The position numbers and the translations under genes were made by a program. The notes under the pieces are model-generated. The model was not told where the DNA came from. It was given only the letters and a program-made list of their open reading frames with translations, and searched no databases. From Halobacterium jilantaiense (lineage in GTDB: Archaea > Halobacteriota > Halobacteria > Halobacteriales > Halobacteriaceae), in assembly GCF_900110535.1 (NCBI RefSeq), contig NZ_FOJA01000001.1:806001-870000 (forward strand): a stretch of DNA of 64,000 nt. The letters run 5' to 3'. Below are positions 22,307-36,160 of this stretch, piece by piece. Numbering within the stretch: the first letter of the stretch is position 1; every line of letters starts with the position of its first letter.

Positions 22307-23026
22307 TCACTGCGTAGCGACGGGGCCGAGCCGCGTCAACTGCCCACCTTCGATCAACTCCCGCAACCCATCCTTCGACGGAAATCGCCGCGTAAGGTTA
22401 TCCATCGGCTCACCAGGCGCAAGCGAATGATAGTAGTGCGCGTCGGGATCGGACGCGAATAACCGGCGTTGGCTCCCACCGAAGTCGAAGAGCCCGAGAT
22501 CAAGGTACAGGCCTTTCTGTTGGATGCGCGCTGCGCCTTTGCGATACCCGAGGATCTCGGCCGGCACCAAATCTTCGAGAGCTTCGACAGGCATCTCGAA
22601 ATTCCGGTACGTAATCGGCTCCCCCAACGATAACGTTTCGAGGCGAGGACTGTACCGGCCGAACTCGACCGATTGCTGGAGATCACCGCCAAGCGCTTCC
22701 CGCGCATCCTCGATCTGCTCGATGTGGTCCTCGTGGAACACCCAGTGGATGATTGCCCCCAGCCGCAGTGCCTCCCGGGTTTTCTCACGGTATGGCTGGT
22801 CGCTGCCGGCGACGAACTCAATCCAGCGGTTCACTCCTTCCCCGAGGATCAGGCAGTCAGGGACGCGGTCCGCCATTTTCCGCTCGAACCGGTACTCACC
22901 AGGATAGTACGGGTCGCGCTCCTCGCGTTTCCGCGCCGCCAACTCCACCTTCGGCCACAGATGCGCCTGCGACTCCGTCCCCGCAGTCTGCAGCTCCTGG
23001 ATGTCTGCCCGCGAAAACTCCGTCAT
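22307..23026 (-). CDS. CoiA-like / PD-(D/E)XK-fold nuclease candidate (HRAMP locus)
   Basis: Protein of 239 residues from the ATG at 23,026 (a GTG lies two codons earlier). Residues 57-72 read VPDCLILGE then RWIEFV, followed by SDQPYREKTREAL, which recalls the CoiA/restriction-fold core where D57 and E70 would bind metal; the usual lysine after E-x is replaced, so activity is uncertain. It is the last gene of the minus-strand RAMP operon, 67 bases after the exonuclease gene, and may be one of the varied nucleases associated with these loci. Confidence 0.55.
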   Translation of the reverse strand: MTEFSRADIQELQTAGTESQAHLWPKVELAARKREERDPYYPGEYRFERKMADRVPDCLILGEGVNRWIEFVAGSDQPYREKTREALRLGAIIHWVFHEDHIEQIEDAREALGGDLQQSVEFGRYSPRLETLSLGEPITYRNFEMPVEALEDLVPAEILGYRKGAARIQQKGLYLDLGLFDFGGSQRRLFASDPDAHYYHSLAPGEPMDNLTRRFPSKDGLRELIEGGQLTRLGPVATQ

Positions 23027-23093
23027 CCCCACTCTCCCTGCTTACCGCAGTCACTCGTCCACGTTACCGTCGCTGCTGTCGTGTTACTGTGTC

Positions 23094-23771
23094 TCATGAG
23101 TCTGTGATTGTTGGCGTGAGTGATTTCACGTTGAAATCTGATTTACTGCAGTACGATTCCGCGAGCCGGCCGAGCGCCTGCGTCCGCAACACATCCGCCA
23201 CGTTGTGCACCACCACGTCACCGAACCGCCCGGCCTCGAACGCCGATACGGCCTCCTTGCTCGCCTCGAACGGATCGAGGCCACTGTACTCGCCACCGCA
23301 CAGCGTCTCATACACCCCCACCAAGTCTGACTGGGACTCATCGCCGCTCGCGTCACTCCTAGTGGTGTTGAATCGCCGGGAGATGAGTGGCATCAGGTCC
23401 GCGTACGGGACGTCGCTGAACGGCCACGCGAGGCCATGTTGGGCGAGGCGCGTCCGCAGGAACGGCAAGTCAAACCCCGACTTCCACCGCTCACCATTGT
23501 ACGCCAGCAACAGGACCTCGCGGTCACAGAGCCTCCGCCCAACAAACTCTCCCACCCCCTCCAACAATTCTCGTTCACTCTCGTGGACGGACACCACCAC
23601 GTGCTCGTCAACACGCTCCCGCACTCGTGTCTCAAGCCCGGTCACCGACCGGCCACCCGTCTGCACGAACACCCGGACACCCATCGGCACTGCGAACCCG
23701 ACCACCGTCACTGCATCATCGACGCCGAACCCGGTCGTCTCAATATCGAAGGCGACCGATTCGAGCACCAC
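23094..23771 (-). CDS. DEDD 3'-5' exonuclease (RNase H-like fold), HRAMP-associated
   Basis: Protein of 225 residues. FDIETTGFG (D9, E11) is exonuclease motif I, YNGERWKSGFDLPFL supplies motif II and VVHNVADVL motif III, with His where many relatives have Tyr. This is the DnaQ/RNase_H_2 fold, which digests nucleic acid 3' to 5' using two metal ions. The start is GTG and overlaps the stop of the upstream RAMP gene, so the two are translationally coupled. This ties the nuclease physically to the RAMP complex genes and suggests it is the effector or trimmer. Confidence 0.8.
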   Translation of the reverse strand: MVLESVAFDIETTGFGVDDAVTVVGFAVPMGVRVFVQTGGRSVTGLETRVRERVDEHVVVSVHESERELLEGVGEFVGRRLCDREVLLLAYNGERWKSGFDLPFLRTRLAQHGLAWPFSDVPYADLMPLISRRFNTTRSDASGDESQSDLVGVYETLCGGEYSGLDPFEASKEAVSAFEAGRFGDVVVHNVADVLRTQALGRLAESYCSKSDFNVKSLTPTITDS

Positions 23772-24706
23772 TACTCATCACCCCCAGCCTCCTTCCGTGA
23801 CTCAACGCGGTCACGGCCAGCCGGTCGGAGCCGAAACTCACCGAATCCAAGCCGTGAATGCGTCCCAACCCGCAGCACGCCATTCACCGCCGTCTCCACC
23901 GGCCGATCACCACCATAGTTGACGACCTGGCCGTGATCGACGAGTTCGAGCTCGTACGTGTCGTCGCCGTCGACGAGCCGCCCTGTCCGCTGTCGCAACC
24001 CACCTGTCAAGTCGCCCTGCACATCCCACCACCACGGCACCGCCTGGGCATCACCATGCGGCGACTCACTCCCAAGGACGTACGGCGACACCACCTCCAA
24101 CTGGTAGCCTTGACCCGCATCCGCTAAGCCCGAATAATCGAGGTCGTCGAGCTCAACGAGCTGGGTGTCCGCGACCGACAACTCGCCAAACCCGTAGTTC
24201 CGCGCCCCACCAACCTGAATCCCATCTAGGACGTCCTCGTCGAGCGGGAGGACGGTGTCGTCAGGGGTGTGGAGGTAGCAGTGCAGGAACCACGACATCG
24301 TCCGGGTATGCGCCCGCATCTCCACAGGGCGCGCAAACTGCACACTATCTGTGAACGCAAGCCGCCCACCATGACTGGCGAGATCGTGCGTGTTGTGCGC
24401 GTCCCGCGGCCGCGAATCCAGCAACCACCGCTGCCCGGGATCACGGAACACGAACAAATCCTCGTACGCCGCAACCTCAGGCAACGACATCCCCAACTTC
24501 CCCGCATACCCATCCCTTGAGTGAGCAGCGGGGTACTCTCCGTACTCGCCCGGCACAAACAACCCATGACTCACGTGCAGCGAACGCCCCGCGACGTCGT
24601 CAACGCGGCGCGCTAACGCATTGTAGAGCGCATTCCCAGAGACGAAGTACGGATGGCCGAGATAGTGCCCGTCCACCTCAAACAACACCTGCTGAATGGC
24701 CGTCAC
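23771..24706 (-). CDS. RAMP-superfamily protein with two glycine loops (Cas5/Cas6-like)
   Basis: Protein of 311 residues from the GTG at 24,706. It contains two glycine-rich loops, VGGARNYGFGEL at about 165-176 and VGTHSRLGFGEF at about 280-291, as expected for two RRM-like RAMP domains; Cas5, Cas6 and Csx10 proteins have this type of loop. The first loop is almost the same as that of the Cas7-like protein encoded 2 kb upstream. RAMPs bind and sometimes cut CRISPR-type RNA. No conserved catalytic His/Lys set can be assigned by eye. It follows a 397-base structured gap and overlaps the exonuclease gene. Confidence 0.7.
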   Translation of the reverse strand: MTAIQQVLFEVDGHYLGHPYFVSGNALYNALARRVDDVAGRSLHVSHGLFVPGEYGEYPAAHSRDGYAGKLGMSLPEVAAYEDLFVFRDPGQRWLLDSRPRDAHNTHDLASHGGRLAFTDSVQFARPVEMRAHTRTMSWFLHCYLHTPDDTVLPLDEDVLDGIQVGGARNYGFGELSVADTQLVELDDLDYSGLADAGQGYQLEVVSPYVLGSESPHGDAQAVPWWWDVQGDLTGGLRQRTGRLVDGDDTYELELVDHGQVVNYGGDRPVETAVNGVLRVGTHSRLGFGEFRLRPAGRDRVESRKEAGGDE

Positions 24707-25103
24707 ACCACACCACCCCCAACACACCGGCGACCACACTGACTCGCCAACCACCAACCACGAACACGCCTGAATTCCAGTGACTCCTGCTCACATGGAC
24801 ACGCAGATGTCAGGGAATGGGCTGCCCCCGCAGTAGCAGGATGGGCGTCAAACCGGCACTGGGGCTGGCGACGGGGAACATGCATCGCCAGCCAGCGACG
24901 GGCACCTGGGCGGGCACGGGCTGCCACCACGCAGCCCACCCGCCCAAACCCACCCTGAGGGTCACGCCCCGGAGTGCGAGTTGTGGCACGCCCACCACAG
25001 CCCGCCACACGAGCACCACCCCGTCGGTGTGAGCGGTGCCCCACCACGAGCACCACCCACACCCCACACTCGGGGCCACCACCACGCCCCCAACCCACCG
25101 GCA
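24707..25103. other. structured non-coding gap inside the RAMP operon
   Basis: 397 bases with no supported gene between two genes of the operon; other junctions in it overlap or have short gaps. The stretch holds two strong inverted repeats (24,863-24,946, listed separately), a small ACCC/GGGT hairpin near 24,952 and, at its right end, a 13-base direct repeat (CACGAGCACCACC at 25,008-25,020 and 25,045-25,057, period 37) within CAC-rich sequence. Confidence 0.6.
24863..24946 (-). ncRNA. candidate structured RNA of the RAMP operon
   Basis: Two perfect or near-perfect hairpins lie side by side. One has arms GGCTGGCGA (24863-24871) and TCGCCAGCC (24885-24893), 9 bp with a 13-base loop. The other has outer arms TGGGCGGG (24907-24914) and CCCGCCCA (24939-24946) plus inner arms of 7 bp (24918-24924 with 24931-24937) around a 6-base loop, 15 bp in all with a small internal loop. 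The operon is read on the minus strand, so that orientation is assumed. No homology to a known RNA is claimed; a terminator or mRNA-processing element is possible. Confidence 0.4.
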
Positions 25104-25916
25104 TCACCTCCCACCCCCAAAACCCGCAGCACTACCACCACCCGATTCGAACCGCCGGCAGTAATCCTCGATGTACTGCAGCGCCGTCGACCACGACCGG
25201 ATTCGCCGCAGCTGCGCATCCAGAACCCGCCACTCACGGCCCGAATCAGCTTGGAAGGGATGCTCCGGCAGCCGACTCCACACATCCGCAAACGACCGCA
25301 CCGGCCCACCACCAAGCCGCGCTGCGGGCCGTCCATCAGGCTCGCCAGTCACCGTCAACGCAACCCCAGCCGTCTCTAAGACTGTCCGATGCGGCACCAC
25401 ATCCGGGGATCCCTTACCAGCAGGTTCGACGGCGAGGTACAGGTCCTCGAAGTCGTAGCCAGCACGATAGTTGTCGAAGAGCGCGGCCGCCAGCAGCGTG
25501 TGGTACTTCAGCGACGTATACGGATAATATACCGATTCAGAGAAGACCCCGACCTCCCGAGACGCCAACCACGCTGCGTGTAACTCCACCGGGTCGTCCA
25601 ACTGAATCAGGTCACGAATCGCCGGCCACACGCTCGCCGTCTCGACGAGCGGTGAGATACTCCCCGACACCAACGAAAGCCGGTACGGCGAGTCATGCCC
25701 CTCGAACGTCTGTGAGGGCTCGCCACGTGGCCGACTCAGCAACGCCGCATCACCATCCGCCCCACGCGGCACAGCCTGGTTTACGCGCACGCCAGCAACC
25801 CAGTCCTCGGCATCCGCATGCGACCGCAACCGCGCCTTATGCACATCATGCCGATACACCCCCACCAACGGCGCACTCTCCGTCTCCACCACCGCACTCT
25901 CAGCAGCGTCACTCAT
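25104..25916 (-). CDS. uncharacterised HRAMP-locus protein
   Basis: Protein of 270 residues from the ATG at 25,916, overlapping the preceding small gene by 8 bases. It includes a conserved-looking aromatic segment (YYPYTSLKYHTLLAAALF, then YRAGYDFEDLYLAVEP) and a Gly/Ala-rich C-terminus. I recognise no domain. By position it matches the uncharacterised conserved protein said to accompany the Cas5- and Cas7-like proteins in HRAMP loci, but a diverged Cas5 is also possible. Confidence 0.6.
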   Translation of the reverse strand: MSDAAESAVVETESAPLVGVYRHDVHKARLRSHADAEDWVAGVRVNQAVPRGADGDAALLSRPRGEPSQTFEGHDSPYRLSLVSGSISPLVETASVWPAIRDLIQLDDPVELHAAWLASREVGVFSESVYYPYTSLKYHTLLAAALFDNYRAGYDFEDLYLAVEPAGKGSPDVVPHRTVLETAGVALTVTGEPDGRPAARLGGGPVRSFADVWSRLPEHPFQADSGREWRVLDAQLRRIRSWSTALQYIEDYCRRFESGGGSAAGFGGGR

Positions 25917-26190
25917 CACCACCACCCCCAGCAACCTCACCCGCCACCTCCTGCTCTTGGGCGGTCCGCAACTCTGTCGAGGGATCCACCAACTCATCCA
26001 CCCCACCCCGGGCGTCCGGCTCTAGCTCGCCACCACGACTCGGCGTCGTCTCGCTACCTGCGTCGTTAGCTGGCTCGGTACGCTCGTGTTCCTGCGCCGT
26101 CCGCAAATCCACCGACGGCTCAACCAACTCATTCAACCCTGTATCATCCGTCTCAGGACCGCTGTCATCCTTTTCGGAGTCGTCAGGCAT
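25909..26190 (-). CDS. small acidic protein with a duplicated motif
   Basis: Protein of 93 residues from the ATG at 26,190. It is very acidic, probably disordered, and contains the same block twice: LNELVEPSVDLRTAQEHE and VDELVDPSTELRTAQEQE, about 42 residues apart. It overlaps the Cas7-like gene before it (8 bases) and the next gene (8 bases), so it is a true member of the operon. It could be a linker or a short peptide binding two copies of a partner. No match known to me. Confidence 0.6.
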   Translation of the reverse strand: MPDDSEKDDSGPETDDTGLNELVEPSVDLRTAQEHERTEPANDAGSETTPSRGGELEPDARGGVDELVDPSTELRTAQEQEVAGEVAGGGGDE

Positions 26191-27127
26191 CACGCACCAC
26201 CTCCCCAGTACGCGCCTCAACACGCGCCTGCAACGCCCGCACAAACTCCGGCCGACACTCCTCGGCCCAAAGGTCGTCTTTTTCCTCCATCGCCGACGTC
26301 GCCGCCTTCGCCCGATCAAACACCCGCCGCACCTCACGCTCACTGTACAACGGATTAATCACCCACACATCAGCGATCCCGGCCCCGAAATTCCGAGCGC
26401 CACCAACCTGGAACTCAAACTCATCGCTATGCGCGTCCAGGAACGACACAGCTTCAAGGAGCAGCCCGACGAACTCCGGCTTCAACTCCCGAAGCGACAA
26501 CTTCCACGTCCCCTCGACGTTTCCGAGCACATCTCGGTCCGCTTGCCGAAGCGGCTCCCCACCGTCTTCCTCGTTCCGCGACCGCACCTGATTCGAAATC
26601 TGCCGATAATGCGCCTCCGCCTCACCGTCTAGGACATCCACCTGCCGGCGAATCGGCGAAAACGACACCGGACGACGCAGCAACTTCCCAGGTTGCGAAC
26701 CGAACCCACCAAACAGGTCGTAGATGACACAACCCGCATCGTGGTCACCCAGGCATGCCCCCTTCTCGTGGTACCCCGAGTCGAGATCACGCTCGTACGT
26801 CTCCGCACGCATATAATCCGCATTCGGTTCTCCGGGATGGCACGCAGTCGCGCCAGCGATCTGGACGGCTTCCTCGCACCCGTGCCGCAGCCACCCCGAA
26901 AGGGTGAACGGTGAGATCTGCCCCTCGATCTGATTCATCGGATCGTCCGACTCGTATCGCTCAGCGGACGCGTGATGCCGATCCGTGACGATGCCGTCTC
27001 CTGGGGACAGCAGATCGATTTCGAGGCCGACGTACACGTCTGGCAGCAACATCTCCTCCACCGACCGCGGCACGTCCAGCTCGACATCGAGATGCGAATC
27101 CGCGAGCCACGACTCACCCGACTTCAT
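26183..27127 (-). CDS. Cas7-like RAMP protein (HRAMP)
   Basis: Protein of 314 residues. GQISPFTLSGWLRHGCEEAV corresponds to the helix entry of Cas7-type RAMPs (PxSSLrGxLR in typical members); a Cys-containing insertion (CLGDHDAGCVIYDLFGG) follows, recalling the zinc-bearing Csc2/Csm3 group, and the glycine loop VGGARNFGAG lies at about 241-250. Cas7 proteins polymerise along a guide RNA. No Cas10, Cas8, Cas1 or Cas2 gene is in the window. The ATG overlaps the stop of the upstream zinc-protein gene (4 bases). Confidence 0.75.
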   Translation of the reverse strand: MKSGESWLADSHLDVELDVPRSVEEMLLPDVYVGLEIDLLSPGDGIVTDRHHASAERYESDDPMNQIEGQISPFTLSGWLRHGCEEAVQIAGATACHPGEPNADYMRAETYERDLDSGYHEKGACLGDHDAGCVIYDLFGGFGSQPGKLLRRPVSFSPIRRQVDVLDGEAEAHYRQISNQVRSRNEEDGGEPLRQADRDVLGNVEGTWKLSLRELKPEFVGLLLEAVSFLDAHSDEFEFQVGGARNFGAGIADVWVINPLYSEREVRRVFDRAKAATSAMEEKDDLWAEECRPEFVRALQARVEARTGEVVRDA

Positions 27128-27669
27128 CGCTCACCACCCCAGAACAACCCACGAACCACATCACTGTCTGGGCGGCTCGTACGACGCTGCGCCTCGTCAA
27201 GGGACACCTCTGCTGACGCCTCGTGTGTTTCTGGTTCCTCAACGTTAGACGCGACGTTCGCAGGCGACCCACCATCCGGGATCTTCCGCACCGACTTCGT
27301 CGCCGCCGAACTCACCCCCACCACCACAGGATCCAACAGCACCGGCCATGACGACTGGGTCGCCCCGTCCGAGCACAGCCCGATGCGACCCTCGACAAGC
27401 AATTCCCGCACACCAAGCGTGTACTCCGTGGGAAGCTCATGACCCTCGTCACCACACACTACGTAACCAACCTGAAACATCACCTCGCCAGCCGGCCGAA
27501 ACACGTACACAAAAACCGCATCACCCTCACAAAAAGAAGAGCCGCACACCTGACACGTCGCGGCCCCTTCCCCGAGCGAAAAATCATTTAATTGATGTAT
27601 TTCTTCAAGGAGTTGGTTATCGATGCTCTCTTCATCAACTGACTCTGATTCGTCCATGGGTTCTTGCAT
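27124..27669 (-). CDS. zinc-binding protein, first gene of the HRAMP operon
   Basis: Protein of 181 residues if started at the ATG at 27,669. After an acidic N-terminus, TCQVCG and SSFCEGD and later VVCGDEGHE provide several Cys/His ligands as in a zinc ribbon. The C-terminal third is polar and probably disordered. Start choice is uncertain: ATGs at 27,759, 27,705 and 27,657 are in frame, but the TATA box at 27,772-27,780 puts the transcript start near 27,750, which excludes the first. It heads a transcript of at least four overlapping genes. Confidence 0.6.
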   Translation of the reverse strand: MQEPMDESESVDEESIDNQLLEEIHQLNDFSLGEGAATCQVCGSSFCEGDAVFVYVFRPAGEVMFQVGYVVCGDEGHELPTEYTLGVRELLVEGRIGLCSDGATQSSWPVLLDPVVVGVSSAATKSVRKIPDGGSPANVASNVEEPETHEASAEVSLDEAQRRTSRPDSDVVRGLFWGGER

Positions 27670-27760
27670 ACCTCTGGAAGAGCCCAGCTCGGATGTTACA
27701 GGCATCCGGGCATTCTCGTGTGATCGTGCCCCGTGGAGCCGAGCCTTCCTACCAGCCATT

Positions 27761-29199: not shown

Positions 29200-29397
29200 T
29201 CTGTAATCCTCTATGTCACGTCACTCGTCTCGCCGAATAATAACCTACGGTAACTGACTGTCTCGGTCGTCGGTCTTTGCTGGATGTACGAACTGCCAAG
29301 AATCGCAGCTGTCCAGAGGTGACGTAGGTTCATATGCGAAAACGACAGGAATTCTCCTCGAATGATTCACCGACAGCCCGCGACGGTTTGCCAAGAG

Positions 29398-29405
29398 TAT
29401 ATATG
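29398..29405 (+). promoter_or_regulatory. TATA box of methyltransferase gene
   Basis: TATATATG lies 31-38 bases before the ATG at 29,436, the normal distance for a haloarchaeal leaderless or short-leader transcript. It is the reason for preferring that ATG over the in-frame ATG at 29,334, which would place the promoter inside the gene. Confidence 0.5.
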
Positions 29406-29435
29406 ATGATGGAGAGAATGGCCGTCAAGCGAAAT

Positions 29436-32400
29436 ATGTCTGTCCGAACTTCCATTGAAGATCTCGATTCAATCGAAAACGGAGGCGATGTCATCGACTA
29501 TCTGCTCGACTCCGGGGGACTAAACTACAGTACCTTTGTAGAGGTCCCGAGCGGGATAAAGCGTAACCAAGGGAGAAACGATTGGTACGAAGCTCACTTA
29601 GTCGATGAGAACGGTGACGGGGTCATTCGATACATCGAACTCGAAGCATCTGGGGATAGCCCTGCGTTTAGCGATCTGAAGCGACACCTGAAACGACACG
29701 GTAGTCCGATCAACGAACTATTCACTGTCATTGCATACAGGAAATCGGACGAGGGACCACTGACTAGTCCCCTGAACGATGATCTCACGTTCCTTCATAT
29801 TGAGGAGCAGTTCTCTTCAGAAGACGTTGAGGTGACCTTCGATCTCAACTACTTCACGGTCAAGCGGTTCGGCGTCGAGCCTGCGTATCTCGACTATCTT
29901 GACGACCTCTCCGTGGACTCTGGACAGGGTCGAACGAGTCTGGGAGGCGATGTTGAGGATGTCTTCTCCATCCGAGAGGTCACGCGGAGCTTCTACCAAG
30001 ATTTCGGGGAAATCTTCCGCGAGGATCTTCAGGATGCAATTCACGACTTGGAGGATCCGGAGGAGAACCTGAACGCATACACGCGAACGGTCGTCAATCG
30101 CGTCCTGTTCTTGCTATTCATTGAGGAGAAGGGGTGGCTTGACGGGGATGTAGACTACGTAGAAAACAAGTACGAAGAGGTGGCCGAAGAGAACGATCTG
30201 CACGTTTACGACGACTTATTCGAGCCACTGTTCTTCGAAGCGCTCTCCGAGGAGGGGACAACGGAATCGGACCGCCTCGGTCAGATTCCCTTCCTCAACG
30301 GCGGTCTGTTCGAGCGCAAAGATATCGAAGAGGACGTCGAAATTGACGAGGCGTTCTTCGACAAGCTCCTCAGCCCGGAGGATGGCGACGATGGCGAACC
30401 GGAAGGATTCCTCCGGCGATACAAAATCTCGCTGCGTGAGTCAAACCCCAGCGAACAGGAACTCGTCGTCGATCCGGAGTTCATCGGGCGTATCTTCGAG
30501 ATGTTCATGCAGGAGGACGAGCGTTCAGAGGTGGGCGCGTTCTACACTCCGAAGCCTATCACTGCCTACATGACGAAGAACGCGCTCAAGCAGCACCTGC
30601 TGGGGGAAACCGACATCTCCCACGAAGAGGCTGTGTCACTGGTTAGTGACCACATCGCCCCCGACTCGCTCACCGAGGATCAGATCGAGGACGTCAATAA
30701 CGCTCTTCGCTCTGCGACCGTACTGGATCCGGCAGTGGGTAGTGGCGCGTTCATCATCGCCATGCTGGAGGAACTCGTCGCCGTCTCGGAAGCGCTCGAC
30801 GATAGTACTGGCGACGACCGAAGCCGGTTCCAGCTGAAAGAAGAGTTCATCGCGGACACGCTCTACGGTGTCGACATCGACGCTGGCGGTATCGAGCTGT
30901 GTAAGTTCCGTGTCTGGCTCCACCTAATGCAGGATCTCGACGTAGACCACGAAGAGTTCCTCGACTCAAACGAAGAGTTTGCACTGCCCAACCTCGGGTT
31001 CAAGTTCTTCGTTGGTAACAGCCTCGTCGGCGAGCATGACCCGACAAACGTCGAGGCCCAGCAAGCCACCCTATCGGGAGGACTCGACGATACACTCGAT
31101 GAGATTCACGATGTTAGGTCCAAATACCAGACCGCACATGGTGAGGAAAAGGACCGGCTTGCCGAGCGACTCGAAACACTTACAGACGAGCTGGAGACCC
31201 AATTAGCCGTCGAAAAGAGTGACTGGATGACCGAGGTTGCCGAAGAGACTGACGAAACCTTTGCGTGGACGCTAAACATTCCGGAGGTCATTCTGGACGG
31301 TGGTTTCGATATTGTAATCGGTAATCCACCGTACGAGGGACAGTCTCAACAAGACTATATTGGAGAACTTGCCCGCTTCTACGACGAAAAGTACGACTTC
31401 TATAAAACGATTCCGCGGATGCGCCATGATCTCTATCAGAAGTTCAATATCCGTGGATGGGAACTGACCCGAAAGGGTGGCGTATTGTCATACATTACTA
31501 GTGATACGTTCTACACTATTGGTTCGAAACAGACGACACGAAATCTGCTTCAACAAAATGAACTTGATATTCTGTTGGACGCCAACTCGGAAACATTCGA
31601 CGCTACAGTAGATCCTGCGATTTTCTCCCTTCGAAAATCCCCTCCTGATGAAACCCATATTATGGCGTATATCGATGCTTCAGACACCAATATTGATCTT
31701 TATCGTTCTCTCATCGGTGACCTATATCGAACGACGGATTCAGATCTTGAGGATAACTTGCTTGGGTGTGACGAATTTGCAACTCCGTTGGATCTCCAAG
31801 AACCTACGCGAGGATATGCGGTGAAGCTATCTCTGTTCAATCGGACGCTTCGACACGCATTCTTTGAGCCCACGGAGGTGAATCTGGAGATACATCAGAA
31901 ACACATGGAGCGAATTAGGACTCTCGCTGAGGAGTGGGAAGACGCCATTAGAGATTCAACTACCTTAGAAAATAATTTAGAGCGTATTGAGGGCGACCAC
32001 CTCTCACAGATTGAACCTGGCGACACCTCTATCGTTGGTTTACTTACACTTGGTGGGCAAGGCCTTGCTACTGGCAACAACGAGGAGTACCTAGCGTACA
32101 TCGACGGCTCGCGCGGAGCACGAAAAGTAAAGCAAAGAAATGAAGAAACATTCACCTACGGTGAGAAAAACGAGAACACCTTTAGTTCCGTTAGCAGAGT
32201 GATTACCGAAGAGTATCTTGCAGATGTCGACTCAATGTCCGAAGATGAGCGGCTGAATGGGCTTGACTCCGACCGCAAAGACACCTGGGTGCCAATAGAG
32301 AAGGGTTTCAAATCAGACGAGATCTACTATAAGGCGAAAGATTCGTACATCAACTGGAGTCGAGATGCAGTCAAAGGGATTGACGATGACGGTCTCATCC

Positions 32401-32798
32401 GAAACCCGGGATACTACTTTGACCCCGGGATATTCTCCTCCCGGGGAGGATTTTCGGAGCTCAAAGTTCGCTACACAGACGACTCGGTTATCGATAGCAC
32501 TGGTGTCGTTCTTGTATCTATTGACGAAGATGTAGTCTCGGCCAAATACCTTAATGGATTGCTCAATTCCGAGGTCTGCGAGCATATTACGGATTCTTTC
32601 ATCAACTCCTCTGGAAAACAGGCGACAGACATGCGCCATATCCCTATCCCGATACCAACATCAGAAGAGGAGCAGATGATCGAAGAACTGGTCGACGAAG
32701 CAATTTCAATCCAGAAGGGAGAGGGTACAAGAACTCTATCAGACGTACAGAGCGAAATTGACGAACGCGTCGAAAAGCTATACAATATCTCGCTATGA
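29436..32798 (+). CDS. Eco57I/PglX-type adenine-specific DNA methyltransferase
   Basis: Protein of 1120 residues. An N-terminal region of about 390 residues precedes the methyltransferase core: AFYTPKPITAYM near 370, SAM-binding DPAVGSGAF at about 431 and the catalytic NPPY at 630-633, an N6-adenine methylase. The C-terminal part (about 900-1110) resembles a target-recognition region. Such large one-chain enzymes occur in type IIG restriction, BREX (PglX) and class 1 DISARM (DrmMI). No nuclease motif was seen in the N-terminus. Its stop overlaps the start of the helicase gene by 4 bases. Confidence 0.87.
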   Translation: MSVRTSIEDLDSIENGGDVIDYLLDSGGLNYSTFVEVPSGIKRNQGRNDWYEAHLVDENGDGVIRYIELEASGDSPAFSDLKRHLKRHGSPINELFTVIAYRKSDEGPLTSPLNDDLTFLHIEEQFSSEDVEVTFDLNYFTVKRFGVEPAYLDYLDDLSVDSGQGRTSLGGDVEDVFSIREVTRSFYQDFGEIFREDLQDAIHDLEDPEENLNAYTRTVVNRVLFLLFIEEKGWLDGDVDYVENKYEEVAEENDLHVYDDLFEPLFFEALSEEGTTESDRLGQIPFLNGGLFERKDIEEDVEIDEAFFDKLLSPEDGDDGEPEGFLRRYKISLRESNPSEQELVVDPEFIGRIFEMFMQEDERSEVGAFYTPKPITAYMTKNALKQHLLGETDISHEEAVSLVSDHIAPDSLTEDQIEDVNNALRSATVLDPAVGSGAFIIAMLEELVAVSEALDDSTGDDRSRFQLKEEFIADTLYGVDIDAGGIELCKFRVWLHLMQDLDVDHEEFLDSNEEFALPNLGFKFFVGNSLVGEHDPTNVEAQQATLSGGLDDTLDEIHDVRSKYQTAHGEEKDRLAERLETLTDELETQLAVEKSDWMTEVAEETDETFAWTLNIPEVILDGGFDIVIGNPPYEGQSQQDYIGELARFYDEKYDFYKTIPRMRHDLYQKFNIRGWELTRKGGVLSYITSDTFYTIGSKQTTRNLLQQNELDILLDANSETFDATVDPAIFSLRKSPPDETHIMAYIDASDTNIDLYRSLIGDLYRTTDSDLEDNLLGCDEFATPLDLQEPTRGYAVKLSLFNRTLRHAFFEPTEVNLEIHQKHMERIRTLAEEWEDAIRDSTTLENNLERIEGDHLSQIEPGDTSIVGLLTLGGQGLATGNNEEYLAYIDGSRGARKVKQRNEETFTYGEKNENTFSSVSRVITEEYLADVDSMSEDERLNGLDSDRKDTWVPIEKGFKSDEIYYKAKDSYINWSRDAVKGIDDDGLIRNPGYYFDPGIFSSRGGFSELKVRYTDDSVIDSTGVVLVSIDEDVVSAKYLNGLLNSEVCEHITDSFINSSGKQATDMRHIPIPIPTSEEEQMIEELVDEAISIQKGEGTRTLSDVQSEIDERVEKLYNISL

Positions 32799-35700
32799 GT
32801 GAGGACCCAGTCCCTGATTGGTCTGGCTACTCTGACGTCCTCGACAACCGCGAATACGATGTTGCCGAGCGGGCGAATGCTCTGGCTCCCGAAGCCGAGA
32901 CCGTCCGAATTGCCGTTGGGTACTTCTATCTCGGTGGTTTCGATCTCCTGAAGGAGAACCTCCGAAGAGCTGAACGCGTTGAAATACTCATCGGAACCGA
33001 TACCGATCAGCGTACCATCGATGAACTGGAACGTGGGTTTGCTGACGACTTAGATGAGTACGACCGCTCTGAAGCTCAAGAAGGTATTAATCGGCTTTAC
33101 GAGCTCATTCAGGAGGACAAGGTGGATGTGCGTGTGTACGACGACAGTCGGTTTCATCCGAAGCTCTATCTCTTCGAGCACCCCGCGGGTTCTCCGGACC
33201 TCGGCCGGGCGATTATCGGCTCCTCAAACCTCTCCGCCAGCGGTCTCCGCGGAAATGTCGAACTGAACGTCGAAAAGAAGGACAACAACACGATCCGGTA
33301 TCTCGGCGAGTGGTTCGAGGAGATCTGGGAGGAGGCCAGCGAATTCGATACAGACCTGATGGTTGCCGAGATAGAGGAGTCGCAGTTCGGAGATGACCTG
33401 CCGGACACCTCTGAGGGAGGAACATCGGTCGCAGAGGTGGAAACGATTTCACCGTACGAAGCGACGAAGCGGTTTATTGTCGAGCAGTTTTCCCGAGACG
33501 TCCGAGAGGGCACCCTACTCCAGGACATCACTGGCGATTACGAAGAACAACTCACAGCGTTCCAGCAGGACGCATTCAGAGCAGCGCGTCGCCCGCTCGA
33601 AAAATACAACGGCGTCGTATTAGCTGACAGCGTCGGTTTAGGGAAGTCGTACATCGGTGCCCCACTCGTGCAGGAATACACGAGCTCCCGAGATGATGTA
33701 CTCATCATCGCCCCCAACCGACTGGAGCGGATGTGGATGCGGGACCTCCTTGATGCGGACACCGGCGAATTTCCGACGACCGCTGAGAAGACGTTTATGA
33801 GTTTCAATAAACTCTCCCGCCTGTCTGAAAAGGAGATCCAACGGCTCCGCGGAGTTGATTTGATTCTCGTCGACGAAGCCCACAATCTCCGAAATACTGG
33901 AACACAGCGCTACGATAAACTCCAGTCAATCGGTCGAAAGGGCAAGAAGTTCGTGATGCTCACTGCGACCCCGATCCACAACTCCGTTCGAGACGTGGAC
34001 AATCTGATCAAGGTGTTTGCCGACGACGACGACTTCGATATTGAGCTGAAGGGTTTGTCACCGAGCGAGATTTTCAAGCAGTACGACCTCCTCTCCAGCG
34101 AGGAGGACAAATCTGCGAGCACTCAGAGTCGGCTTTCGGACCTCGAAGAACTCATTGAGTCAATTATGCGAGAGGTAATTATTTCGAGGGACCGGAAGTA
34201 CATCCTCGAAAATTACGAGGAAGTCACCATCGGAGACCGGGCCATTAGCGTCCCTGATCGAAATCCGCGTCTTGTCACACCGGACGACCCTCGTCTCGAT
34301 GAACTCTATAGTGACATCGTCGATACAGTCATCGGGGCAGATAACTCCGAGAACTCCGGGTTGAATATTCCCTACGTTAGCGCAGATCGGTATGACGCTG
34401 ATGGAGACGAGGAAGAGGAACTAATCATTGAGTACCAGAATGCGAGCATTCTGATGCTCATCAATCTCCTCAAACGTCTTGAGAGCAGCCTTGCCGCTTT
34501 CGAGACTTCTGTTGAACGTCTTATGGAACGAGAGCGCATCACACGTCACATCGCTACTGGTGACTTGGATGATGCGAAAAACCGGAGTGACGCCGTTGAA
34601 CAGATACGGGACACATTTGAAGACGACTTCGCCAAAGATATTGACTTTGAGGAGGTCGCAGAAGCCCTCAATAGAGTCAGCCCCTCGAAGAGGGACGAGA
34701 TCGTAGCAGACATTGACGAAGACCTTCAGGAACTTGATCGTATAAAGCGGCAAGCACAGAATGCACTCCAGACCAAAGAAGACGGCCGCACTAAAGACGC
34801 TAAGGCGGAACGTCTGCGTGGATTAATTGATCGAGAGCTATCGGACGAGAAGGTCCTCATATTCAGTCAGTACGTACCCACGATCACGCATCTCTTCGAG
34901 CAACTAACTGGCGAGAATCCAGCGCACACCAACGTTGCTACGCTCGGTCACGATCCGAGTAACCCTACTGTCGGATTTGTCCACGGGGGCAGTGGGTACG
35001 ATGAGAGGATTGTTGAGCGATTCGCTCCAGAAGCCCAAGAAGCCGACGTCACCCCCGGTGAAGAGATTGACATCCTGTTTGCAACCGACGTACTAGGGGT
35101 CGGACAGAATCTCCAGGATGCGCGAGTCATCGTGAACTACGACCTCCATTGGAACCCGATGAAGATGGAGCAGAGAATTGGACGTATCGACCGCATTACG
35201 ACGCGGCATGACGAGCTGTTAATCTATAACTTTGCTCCGACAGGCGACCTGCGGAAGCAGCTCGGACTTGTTGAGCGGATTCAAGAGAAAATCGAAGATA
35301 TCGCAAACACCTTCGGCCATGCTGCTCCCATCCTGGATACGGCCGAAGAGCAAGTGCATAAGACGCTCATGACCTATGAGCGATTAGAAGAAGGTGGTGC
35401 GGAGTTCGGGGACGAACGGTTGGAGGGTATCGGGTCGAAGTATGACGATCTCAGAAACGTCGTTCGGACATTCTGTGAAGAGAATGATGTCAATGTCGAG
35501 GAGCTTCGGGAAACCTACGATGCCGTCGCAGGTAGGTCGGAACCGCAATATTTCGTCGCACCCGGCGAAGAAGGATATGTCTCGCTCGCACACTTAGAAC
35601 ACAGTAGTGGACGCACCGAATGGCGAACCACCATTTTCGATTCGGATCGAGTACAAAGCACTACAATCGGGGGACAAACAGTCTTCACCCAATTCCCACG

Positions 35701-36160
35701 GCTGGAGACAGATGACGTTCGAGTGTTCGAAACTATCTCTTCCCCTGATACCACTCGCCAAACGATCCCGGAGGATGATTTTGAGGAGTTGAAATCCTTT
35801 GTAAGTGAGCTAGGTACCCCGAGCACGTGGCAAAACGACATATTGAGCAGGCAGAGCGGCGATAGCGACGTCGTTACCGACATCAAACAGTTATGCCGGC
35901 AGATTGCGGACAGCGACGAAGACGTAAGCGGAGAAGCAGAGGAAATCCTCGAACTCTTAGATGATCACGAAATGAGCGACTGGGCCGAGGGACAGTTGCG
36001 CACGATATATCGGAGACGTCGTAGATATGGGACCAACGGCACAATCCGAAGGATACACCACAAACTCACAGAGGAAATTGAGCTAGTTGATCCAGAAACC
36101 GTTACAGAAGCAGATGTCGCACTTGCTGGCCAATTAGATAACAGCAAATCCGAGACCTAA
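32795..36160 (+). CDS. PLD-SNF2 helicase fusion (DrmD-like)
   Basis: Protein of 1121 residues. The N-terminal domain is phospholipase D-like: FHPKLYLFE (HxK at 121-123) followed by GSSNLSASGL, one HKD-type site. A SNF2 superfamily-2 helicase follows, with Walker A GLGKS at 281-285, DEAH at 360-363, LTATPIHN, and a helicase C-domain ending in QRIGRIDRI. It would translocate on DNA and may cut it or position the complex. It is coupled to the adenine methylase by overlap, as drmMI and drmD are in class 1 DISARM, but drmABC are not adjacent. Confidence 0.87.
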   Translation: MSEDPVPDWSGYSDVLDNREYDVAERANALAPEAETVRIAVGYFYLGGFDLLKENLRRAERVEILIGTDTDQRTIDELERGFADDLDEYDRSEAQEGINRLYELIQEDKVDVRVYDDSRFHPKLYLFEHPAGSPDLGRAIIGSSNLSASGLRGNVELNVEKKDNNTIRYLGEWFEEIWEEASEFDTDLMVAEIEESQFGDDLPDTSEGGTSVAEVETISPYEATKRFIVEQFSRDVREGTLLQDITGDYEEQLTAFQQDAFRAARRPLEKYNGVVLADSVGLGKSYIGAPLVQEYTSSRDDVLIIAPNRLERMWMRDLLDADTGEFPTTAEKTFMSFNKLSRLSEKEIQRLRGVDLILVDEAHNLRNTGTQRYDKLQSIGRKGKKFVMLTATPIHNSVRDVDNLIKVFADDDDFDIELKGLSPSEIFKQYDLLSSEEDKSASTQSRLSDLEELIESIMREVIISRDRKYILENYEEVTIGDRAISVPDRNPRLVTPDDPRLDELYSDIVDTVIGADNSENSGLNIPYVSADRYDADGDEEEELIIEYQNASILMLINLLKRLESSLAAFETSVERLMERERITRHIATGDLDDAKNRSDAVEQIRDTFEDDFAKDIDFEEVAEALNRVSPSKRDEIVADIDEDLQELDRIKRQAQNALQTKEDGRTKDAKAERLRGLIDRELSDEKVLIFSQYVPTITHLFEQLTGENPAHTNVATLGHDPSNPTVGFVHGGSGYDERIVERFAPEAQEADVTPGEEIDILFATDVLGVGQNLQDARVIVNYDLHWNPMKMEQRIGRIDRITTRHDELLIYNFAPTGDLRKQLGLVERIQEKIEDIANTFGHAAPILDTAEEQVHKTLMTYERLEEGGAEFGDERLEGIGSKYDDLRNVVRTFCEENDVNVEELRETYDAVAGRSEPQYFVAPGEEGYVSLAHLEHSSGRTEWRTTIFDSDRVQSTTIGGQTVFTQFPRLETDDVRVFETISSPDTTRQTIPEDDFEELKSFVSELGTPSTWQNDILSRQSGDSDVVTDIKQLCRQIADSDEDVSGEAEEILELLDDHEMSDWAEGQLRTIYRRRRRYGTNGTIRRIHHKLTEEIELVDPETVTEADVALAGQLDNSKSET

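Follow-up and report, generated by a model that had tools for sequence, protein, structure and literature searches.

A covarying GUGGUG hairpin array between the p25104 and cas5-like genes of haloarchaeal HRAMP operons

Messenger RNA leaders that fold into several protein-binding hairpins are known from the targets of CsrA/RsmA and from ribosomal-protein autoregulatory sites. CsrA/RsmA-type leaders resemble the module described here in that several hairpins near a ribosome-binding site share a loop but differ in their stems, and a shared mode of control through translational coupling is plausible. Unlike those leaders, the present module is archaeal, carries the loop GUGGUG, lies within a stop-free intercistronic frame and has a putative binder. 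The operon that surrounds it appears to share the composition of HRAMP systems, haloarchaeal operons that likewise bring together Cas7/Csm3-like and Cas5/Cmr3-like genes, nucleases and a third conserved protein. HRAMP has been described as array-less or without mention of an array, and without mention of an RNA element (PMC8730458, PMC12669027), whereas we find an intercistronic module of hairpins and boxes in one clade.

The window, a stretch of 64,000 nt from the chromosome of Halobacterium jilantaiense, contains this operon on the minus strand, in the order p27124, cas7/Csm3-like gene, small acidic ORF, p25104, gap, cas5/Cmr3-like gene, DEDDh-like gene and p22307. The first of these, p27124 (27124..27759), also opens the operon in clade A loci and is followed by the cas7/Csm3-like gene (26183..27127). 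The window's own Cas7-like protein alone gave no match; PADLOC Csm3 matches were obtained for 10 of the 30 members of its family (best 1.9e-4), and Foldseek aligned its model with type VII and Csm Cas7 proteins at an E value of 2.7e-3, on a model (pLDDT 58.5) too poor to serve as the sole argument. A small acidic ORF (25909-26190) with the internal repeat NELVEPSVDLRTAQE / DELVDPSTELRTAQE lies between the cas7-like gene and p25104, and p27124 of locus L194 carries a similar sequence as a fusion. The conserved HRAMP protein p25104 (25104..25916) is kept in clades A and B and likely uses an internal start at MSDAAES. Its AlphaFold2 model (pLDDT 79.8) found almost exclusively Csm1/Cas10 chains among its best PDB matches (E 0.055, probability 0.75); on this weak, model-based indication p25104 might be a Cas10 remnant. 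Beyond the gap, the cas5/Cmr3-like gene (23771..24706) begins with a GTG within GTGA, and the PADLOC match of its product to Cmr3 (8.4e-5) covers a short stretch. It is followed by a DEDDh/RNase H-fold exonuclease-like gene (23094..23771) and by p22307 (22307..23032), which is retained in the operons of many relatives. Two HRAMP features, a diverged Cas7-like and a diverged Cas5-like protein, are thus both present; p25104, conserved in clades A and B, is a candidate for the uncharacterised third protein, and the DEDDh-like gene product for an associated nuclease. Together, these weak but concordant signals agree with the tested features of HRAMP. A type IIG/PglX-like methyltransferase followed by an HKD plus Snf2 helicase, both on the plus strand (29334-36160), places the operon within a defence island.

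The p25104 and cas5-like genes are separated by a structured intercistronic module of 397 nt (24707..25103, minus strand), bounded by the stop codon of an ORF that ends at 25104 and by the GTG start codon at 24706, each on the minus strand; the homologous slot was examined in 37 distinct relatives, whose gaps span 100-700 nt. The original prediction had proposed a structured non-coding RNA in this gap, and the features on which it was built are all there. A perfect 9-bp hairpin pairs 24863-24871 with 24885-24893 (GGCTGGCGA/TCGCCAGCC; 24863..24893, minus strand) around a 13-nt loop that is not of the GUGGUG type, the composite hairpin appears in the minimum free energy (MFE) fold as nine directly stacked pairs (24916-24939) plus outer pairs, and the repeat of period 37 is found at 25002-25021 and 25039-25058 (85% over 20 nt). 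What that list of hairpins had missed is the strongest one, B1 (25026..25063), in which a 16-bp stem closes on a GUGGUG hexaloop at 25042-25047 (covariance model R1, 32.7 bits, E 1.6e-7). The MFE fold of the minus strand shows three adjacent hairpins and a fourth further on, all closing on or near GUGGUG: besides B1, these are the weak B2 (25009..25024; loop 25014-25019, 5 bp), B3 with an interrupted stem (24984..25007; loop 24993-24998; 26.3 bits, E 1.9e-5) and B4, which is the composite hairpin (24916..24939; loop 24925-24930; 28.9 bits, E 2.7e-6). The window therefore has three or four such hairpins, three of them with covariance-model E values below 1e-4, and nothing outside the gap reached E<=0.05 when the window's genome was scanned with the model. 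The fold is more stable than dinucleotide shuffles on the plus strand (z -3.1) and on the transcribed minus strand (z -3.4), with 0 of 100 shuffles as stable. Two GTGGTG-loop hairpins of at least 7 bp occur in the gap, compared with at most one in any of 2000 dinucleotide shuffles; 27 of the shuffles had one and the other 1973 had none. A Shine-Dalgarno-like sequence, GGAGGTGATG (25102..25111, minus strand), overlaps both the stop codon of p25104 and the beginning of the frame that runs through the gap; it also occurs in L118, L119, L115, L049 and L038. In keeping with the earlier statement that no such RNA had been described, the gap gave 0 Rfam matches at the gathering threshold, and we found no description of the module in the open-licence literature searched.

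In the set of 37 distinct gaps from relatives' HRAMP loci, the recurring hairpin has a GUGGUG hexaloop and a stem of 7-16 bp, and the stem sequences are unrelated. GTGGTG was the clear outlier among the 6-mers tried as loops in these gaps: at least five directly flanking pairs accompany it in 27 of 101 cases, the next 6-mer reaching 6, and a coding control gave 5/180. Hairpins of at least 7 bp were found at 36 of 164 sites inside gaps versus 7 of 1027 outside (duplicates included), and four of those seven sit just upstream of a mis-called gap edge. When all 104 GTGGTG occurrences in the gaps were taken without selection, their flanks paired at 62.7% versus 46.1% after permutation (z 10.5), with controls at z 0.3 in coding sequence and at or below 0 in slid registers. 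This is the fair test of the structure; a set of 39 hairpins picked for pairing gave a covariation of 0.947 versus 0.275 +/- 0.028 when shuffled and at most 0.22 in slid registers, and in this set all nine stem pairs vary on both sides. Compensatory base changes thus exceed both compositional and register controls. The preponderance of G.U pairs (43) over A.C mismatches (4) assigns the hairpin structure to the sense-strand RNA, that is, the mRNA. In 18 of 22 strong hairpins the loop falls in the same frame, so a reason at the peptide level keeps some room. A structured RNA in the gap is conserved and covaries across related HRAMP operons. The original prediction had tied its case to conserved length and covariation in related loci, and only the latter was found, gap lengths ranging from -4 to about 600 nt.

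Related arrays are present in Halorubrum, Haloarcula, Halopenitus, Natrinema, Halovenus, Salinibaculum, Halorussus and others. In clade B and in part of clade A, the flanking genes overlap by 4 nt and the module is absent. The Halorubrum/Halopenitus group G2 lacks both the GUGGUG hairpins and the internal boxes, and seven loci of the Halorubrum/Halopenitus group (L061, L062, L064, L066, L069, L070 and L074) retain the open frame without either element; their gaps carry a repeat around ATATGGTCGTGCGGTGAGT, in two to three copies in the longer ones. Two further loci, L194 (G164:C1:219300-229300) and L196 (G253:C34:221600-231600), appear to be HRAMP deletion derivatives with different breakpoints. 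In both, the genes for the Cas7-like, Cas5-like and DEDDh proteins are gone, as is p25104 entirely or almost entirely, and the retained hairpin/box array has p27124 on one side and p22307 on the other. L196 has intact hairpin stems but a broken coupled frame.

The gap had been called non-coding, which holds insofar as we see no conserved protein; the ORF at 24703-25107 on the minus strand nevertheless fills it, and a stop-free coupled frame is retained in relatives. In the window this frame comprises 134 codons and overlaps each neighbour by 4 nt, its GTG start with the upstream stop and its TGA with the cas5-like GTG. Of 32 loci with gaps of at least 100 nt, 30 have a frame without interruption between the upstream stop and the TGA overlapping the cas5-like start, and NTGA is found at 32/32 cas5-like starts. 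The coupled frame contains 6 stops in 4065 codons, all in L072 and L077, versus 154 and 97 in the other frames of the 32 loci. Of 66 indels in four groups of related loci, 60 have a length divisible by three (63/72 with a small fifth group). Differences by codon position in the gap were.18/.18/.24,.16/.18/.20,.19/.19/.16 and.15/.18/.17 in the four groups, compared with.18/.17/.40,.09/.07/.26,.10/.05/.23 and.08/.04/.27 for Cas5 in the same order; between related loci the gap thus lacks the third-position excess expected of purifying selection on amino acids. Divergence in the gap is below that of Cas5 third positions, which suggests constraint at the nucleotide level, to which recombination or composition could contribute. 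From these patterns, the simplest reading of the coupled frame would be a ribosome-traversable spacer with no conserved protein.

Many gaps also contain box A, CACTGGAAACRGGGTGTG, in sense orientation. With at most four mismatches, it had 58 matches inside gaps versus 5 and 5 elsewhere on the two strands in 80 loci. In many relatives the last copy overlaps the cas5-like ribosome-binding site, and short gaps of about 40-57 nt often retain one box-like element at the cas5-like start, the elements ahead of that start being box-like and including the G-rich ribosome-binding sequence. The window has a sole, degenerate copy, CACTGGAATTCAGGCGTG (24765..24782, minus strand).

We tentatively read the gap as a cis-acting RNA array that would control the coupled translation of the cas5-like gene, a reading to which we give slightly less than even weight. 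The module would act as a row of hairpins in the HRAMP mRNA, in which the GUGGUG hexaloop is invariant while the stems covary freely; many relatives add copies of the ORB-like box. Three features suggest coupled translation of the cas5-like gene: a frame without stops, the NTGA start, and a box located at the ribosome-binding site. Ribosomes leaving p25104 could traverse the module and re-initiate at the NTGA. As fixed loops on free stems are most economically explained by a protein that reads the loop, a protein recognizing the common loop or box, perhaps a HRAMP RAMP protein, would bind the array when ribosomes are scarce, and this binding would set cas5-like output relative to cas7-like output as a feedback switch. 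Protein binding, the identity of the binder, the switch and its direction are what we infer as most likely. Since many HRAMP loci lack the module, any such control would be optional, and selection on the frame could also serve ribosome passage alone, without a switch.

Alternatively, the hairpins might be cut from the mRNA and serve as a scaffold or fixed guide for the Cas7-like and Cas5-like proteins, as a component of a HRAMP ribonucleoprotein. This reading, which we consider unlikely, would suit an operon that itself encodes Cas7/Csm3-like and Cas5/Cmr3-like proteins, belongs to a system with no known array (PMC12669027, PMC8730458) and carries several hairpins with one loop and differing stems, reminiscent of a processed array; the two deletion derivatives, moreover, keep the array after loss of the cas7-like and cas5-like genes. 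However, the module is missing from whole HRAMP clades, and excision would not need a stop-free frame. Like CRISPR arrays, the gaps have repeated motifs with unique intervening sequence beside cas7/cas5-like genes, but in place of near-identical repeats and uniform spacers they show stems that are all different and boxes spaced by 24-144 nt. Nor are intervals exchanged between relatives in the manner of spacer replacement: the inter-motif sequence drifts gradually between related loci, with no turnover. No credible phage or plasmid match was found for the three gaps searched, and one gap compared with 382 genomes matched mainly other HRAMP gaps, along with short weak matches. A CRISPR-like adaptive array was rejected on the irregular spacing, the gradual drift and the lack of matches for the three gaps searched; judged by the sequence features tested, the module is not a CRISPR array. 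The guide role originally proposed also fares poorly, given this drift, the lack of protospacer-like matches for those gaps, and the absence of the element from clade B and part of clade A. Quite improbable in our estimate is a combined version, in which the effector's mRNA would itself carry a hairpin array, fixed and non-adaptive, to be bound by the Cas7-like and Cas5-like proteins, with the ORB-like boxes pointing to invader replication origins as a fixed target; if it were true, the hairpins would supply the RNA that this array-less CRISPR derivative has seemed to lack.

Another alternative, which we regard as doubtful, takes box A as a double-stranded DNA site, a putative variant of the origin recognition box (ORB) bound by Orc1/Cdc6, with the gap as a regulatory or titration site and the hairpins as a separate matter. 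Box A closely resembles the Orc1/Cdc6 box: it and the cas5-proximal terminal element share core bases and the pattern of degeneracy with archaeal ORB motifs carrying the halophile G-string (PMC4164010). Relaxed matches elsewhere cluster beside AAA+/Cdc6-like genes. Gaps that contain boxes alone are no more structured as RNA than expected (mean z -0.34), and box A may therefore work at the DNA level; as an RNA hairpin it was rejected on weak covariation (z about 3) and this same lack of structure. Unlike archaeal ORBs, though, the HRAMP copies all point in one direction, with no inverted copies, lie inside a translated operon with no orc1/cdc6 gene in the window or in clade A loci, and form a subclass of their own (CACT, RG at positions 11-12) as opposed to the CACC boxes elsewhere in the same genomes. 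The window, moreover, has only the degenerate copy, and the covarying hairpins and the open frame would be left unexplained. By the sequence features tested, the module is not a conventional origin. An inverted pair of ORB-like boxes, CACTCGAAAYCCGGGGTG, occurs elsewhere in the window's own genome (G000:C1:43821-45374) and may mark a host replication origin. Spread of the box by viruses was dismissed, the exact box being absent from IMG/VR and a looser form giving six single matches.

That the gap encodes a fast-evolving small protein is very improbable and largely refuted, for although a single open frame with overlapping start and stop at its two ends in nearly all loci and indels mainly in multiples of three would suit it, the third-position excess is absent, copies of box A fall in every one of the three frames (40/25/3), the composition, being basic and rich in cysteine, differs from that of haloarchaeal proteins (D+E 6.9%, K+R 16.1%, C 5.4%), and the gap ORF has no protein-family matches.

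Until now no RNA has been obvious for the HRAMP effector. A covarying array in its operon that ribosomes could read through would offer a defined RNA for binding tests and a cis-element that can be mutated, and the question of which RNA the HRAMP proteins handle becomes directly testable. The module is also a case of a functional RNA hidden in what looks like an open reading frame, so that gene-calling programs may report a protein there.
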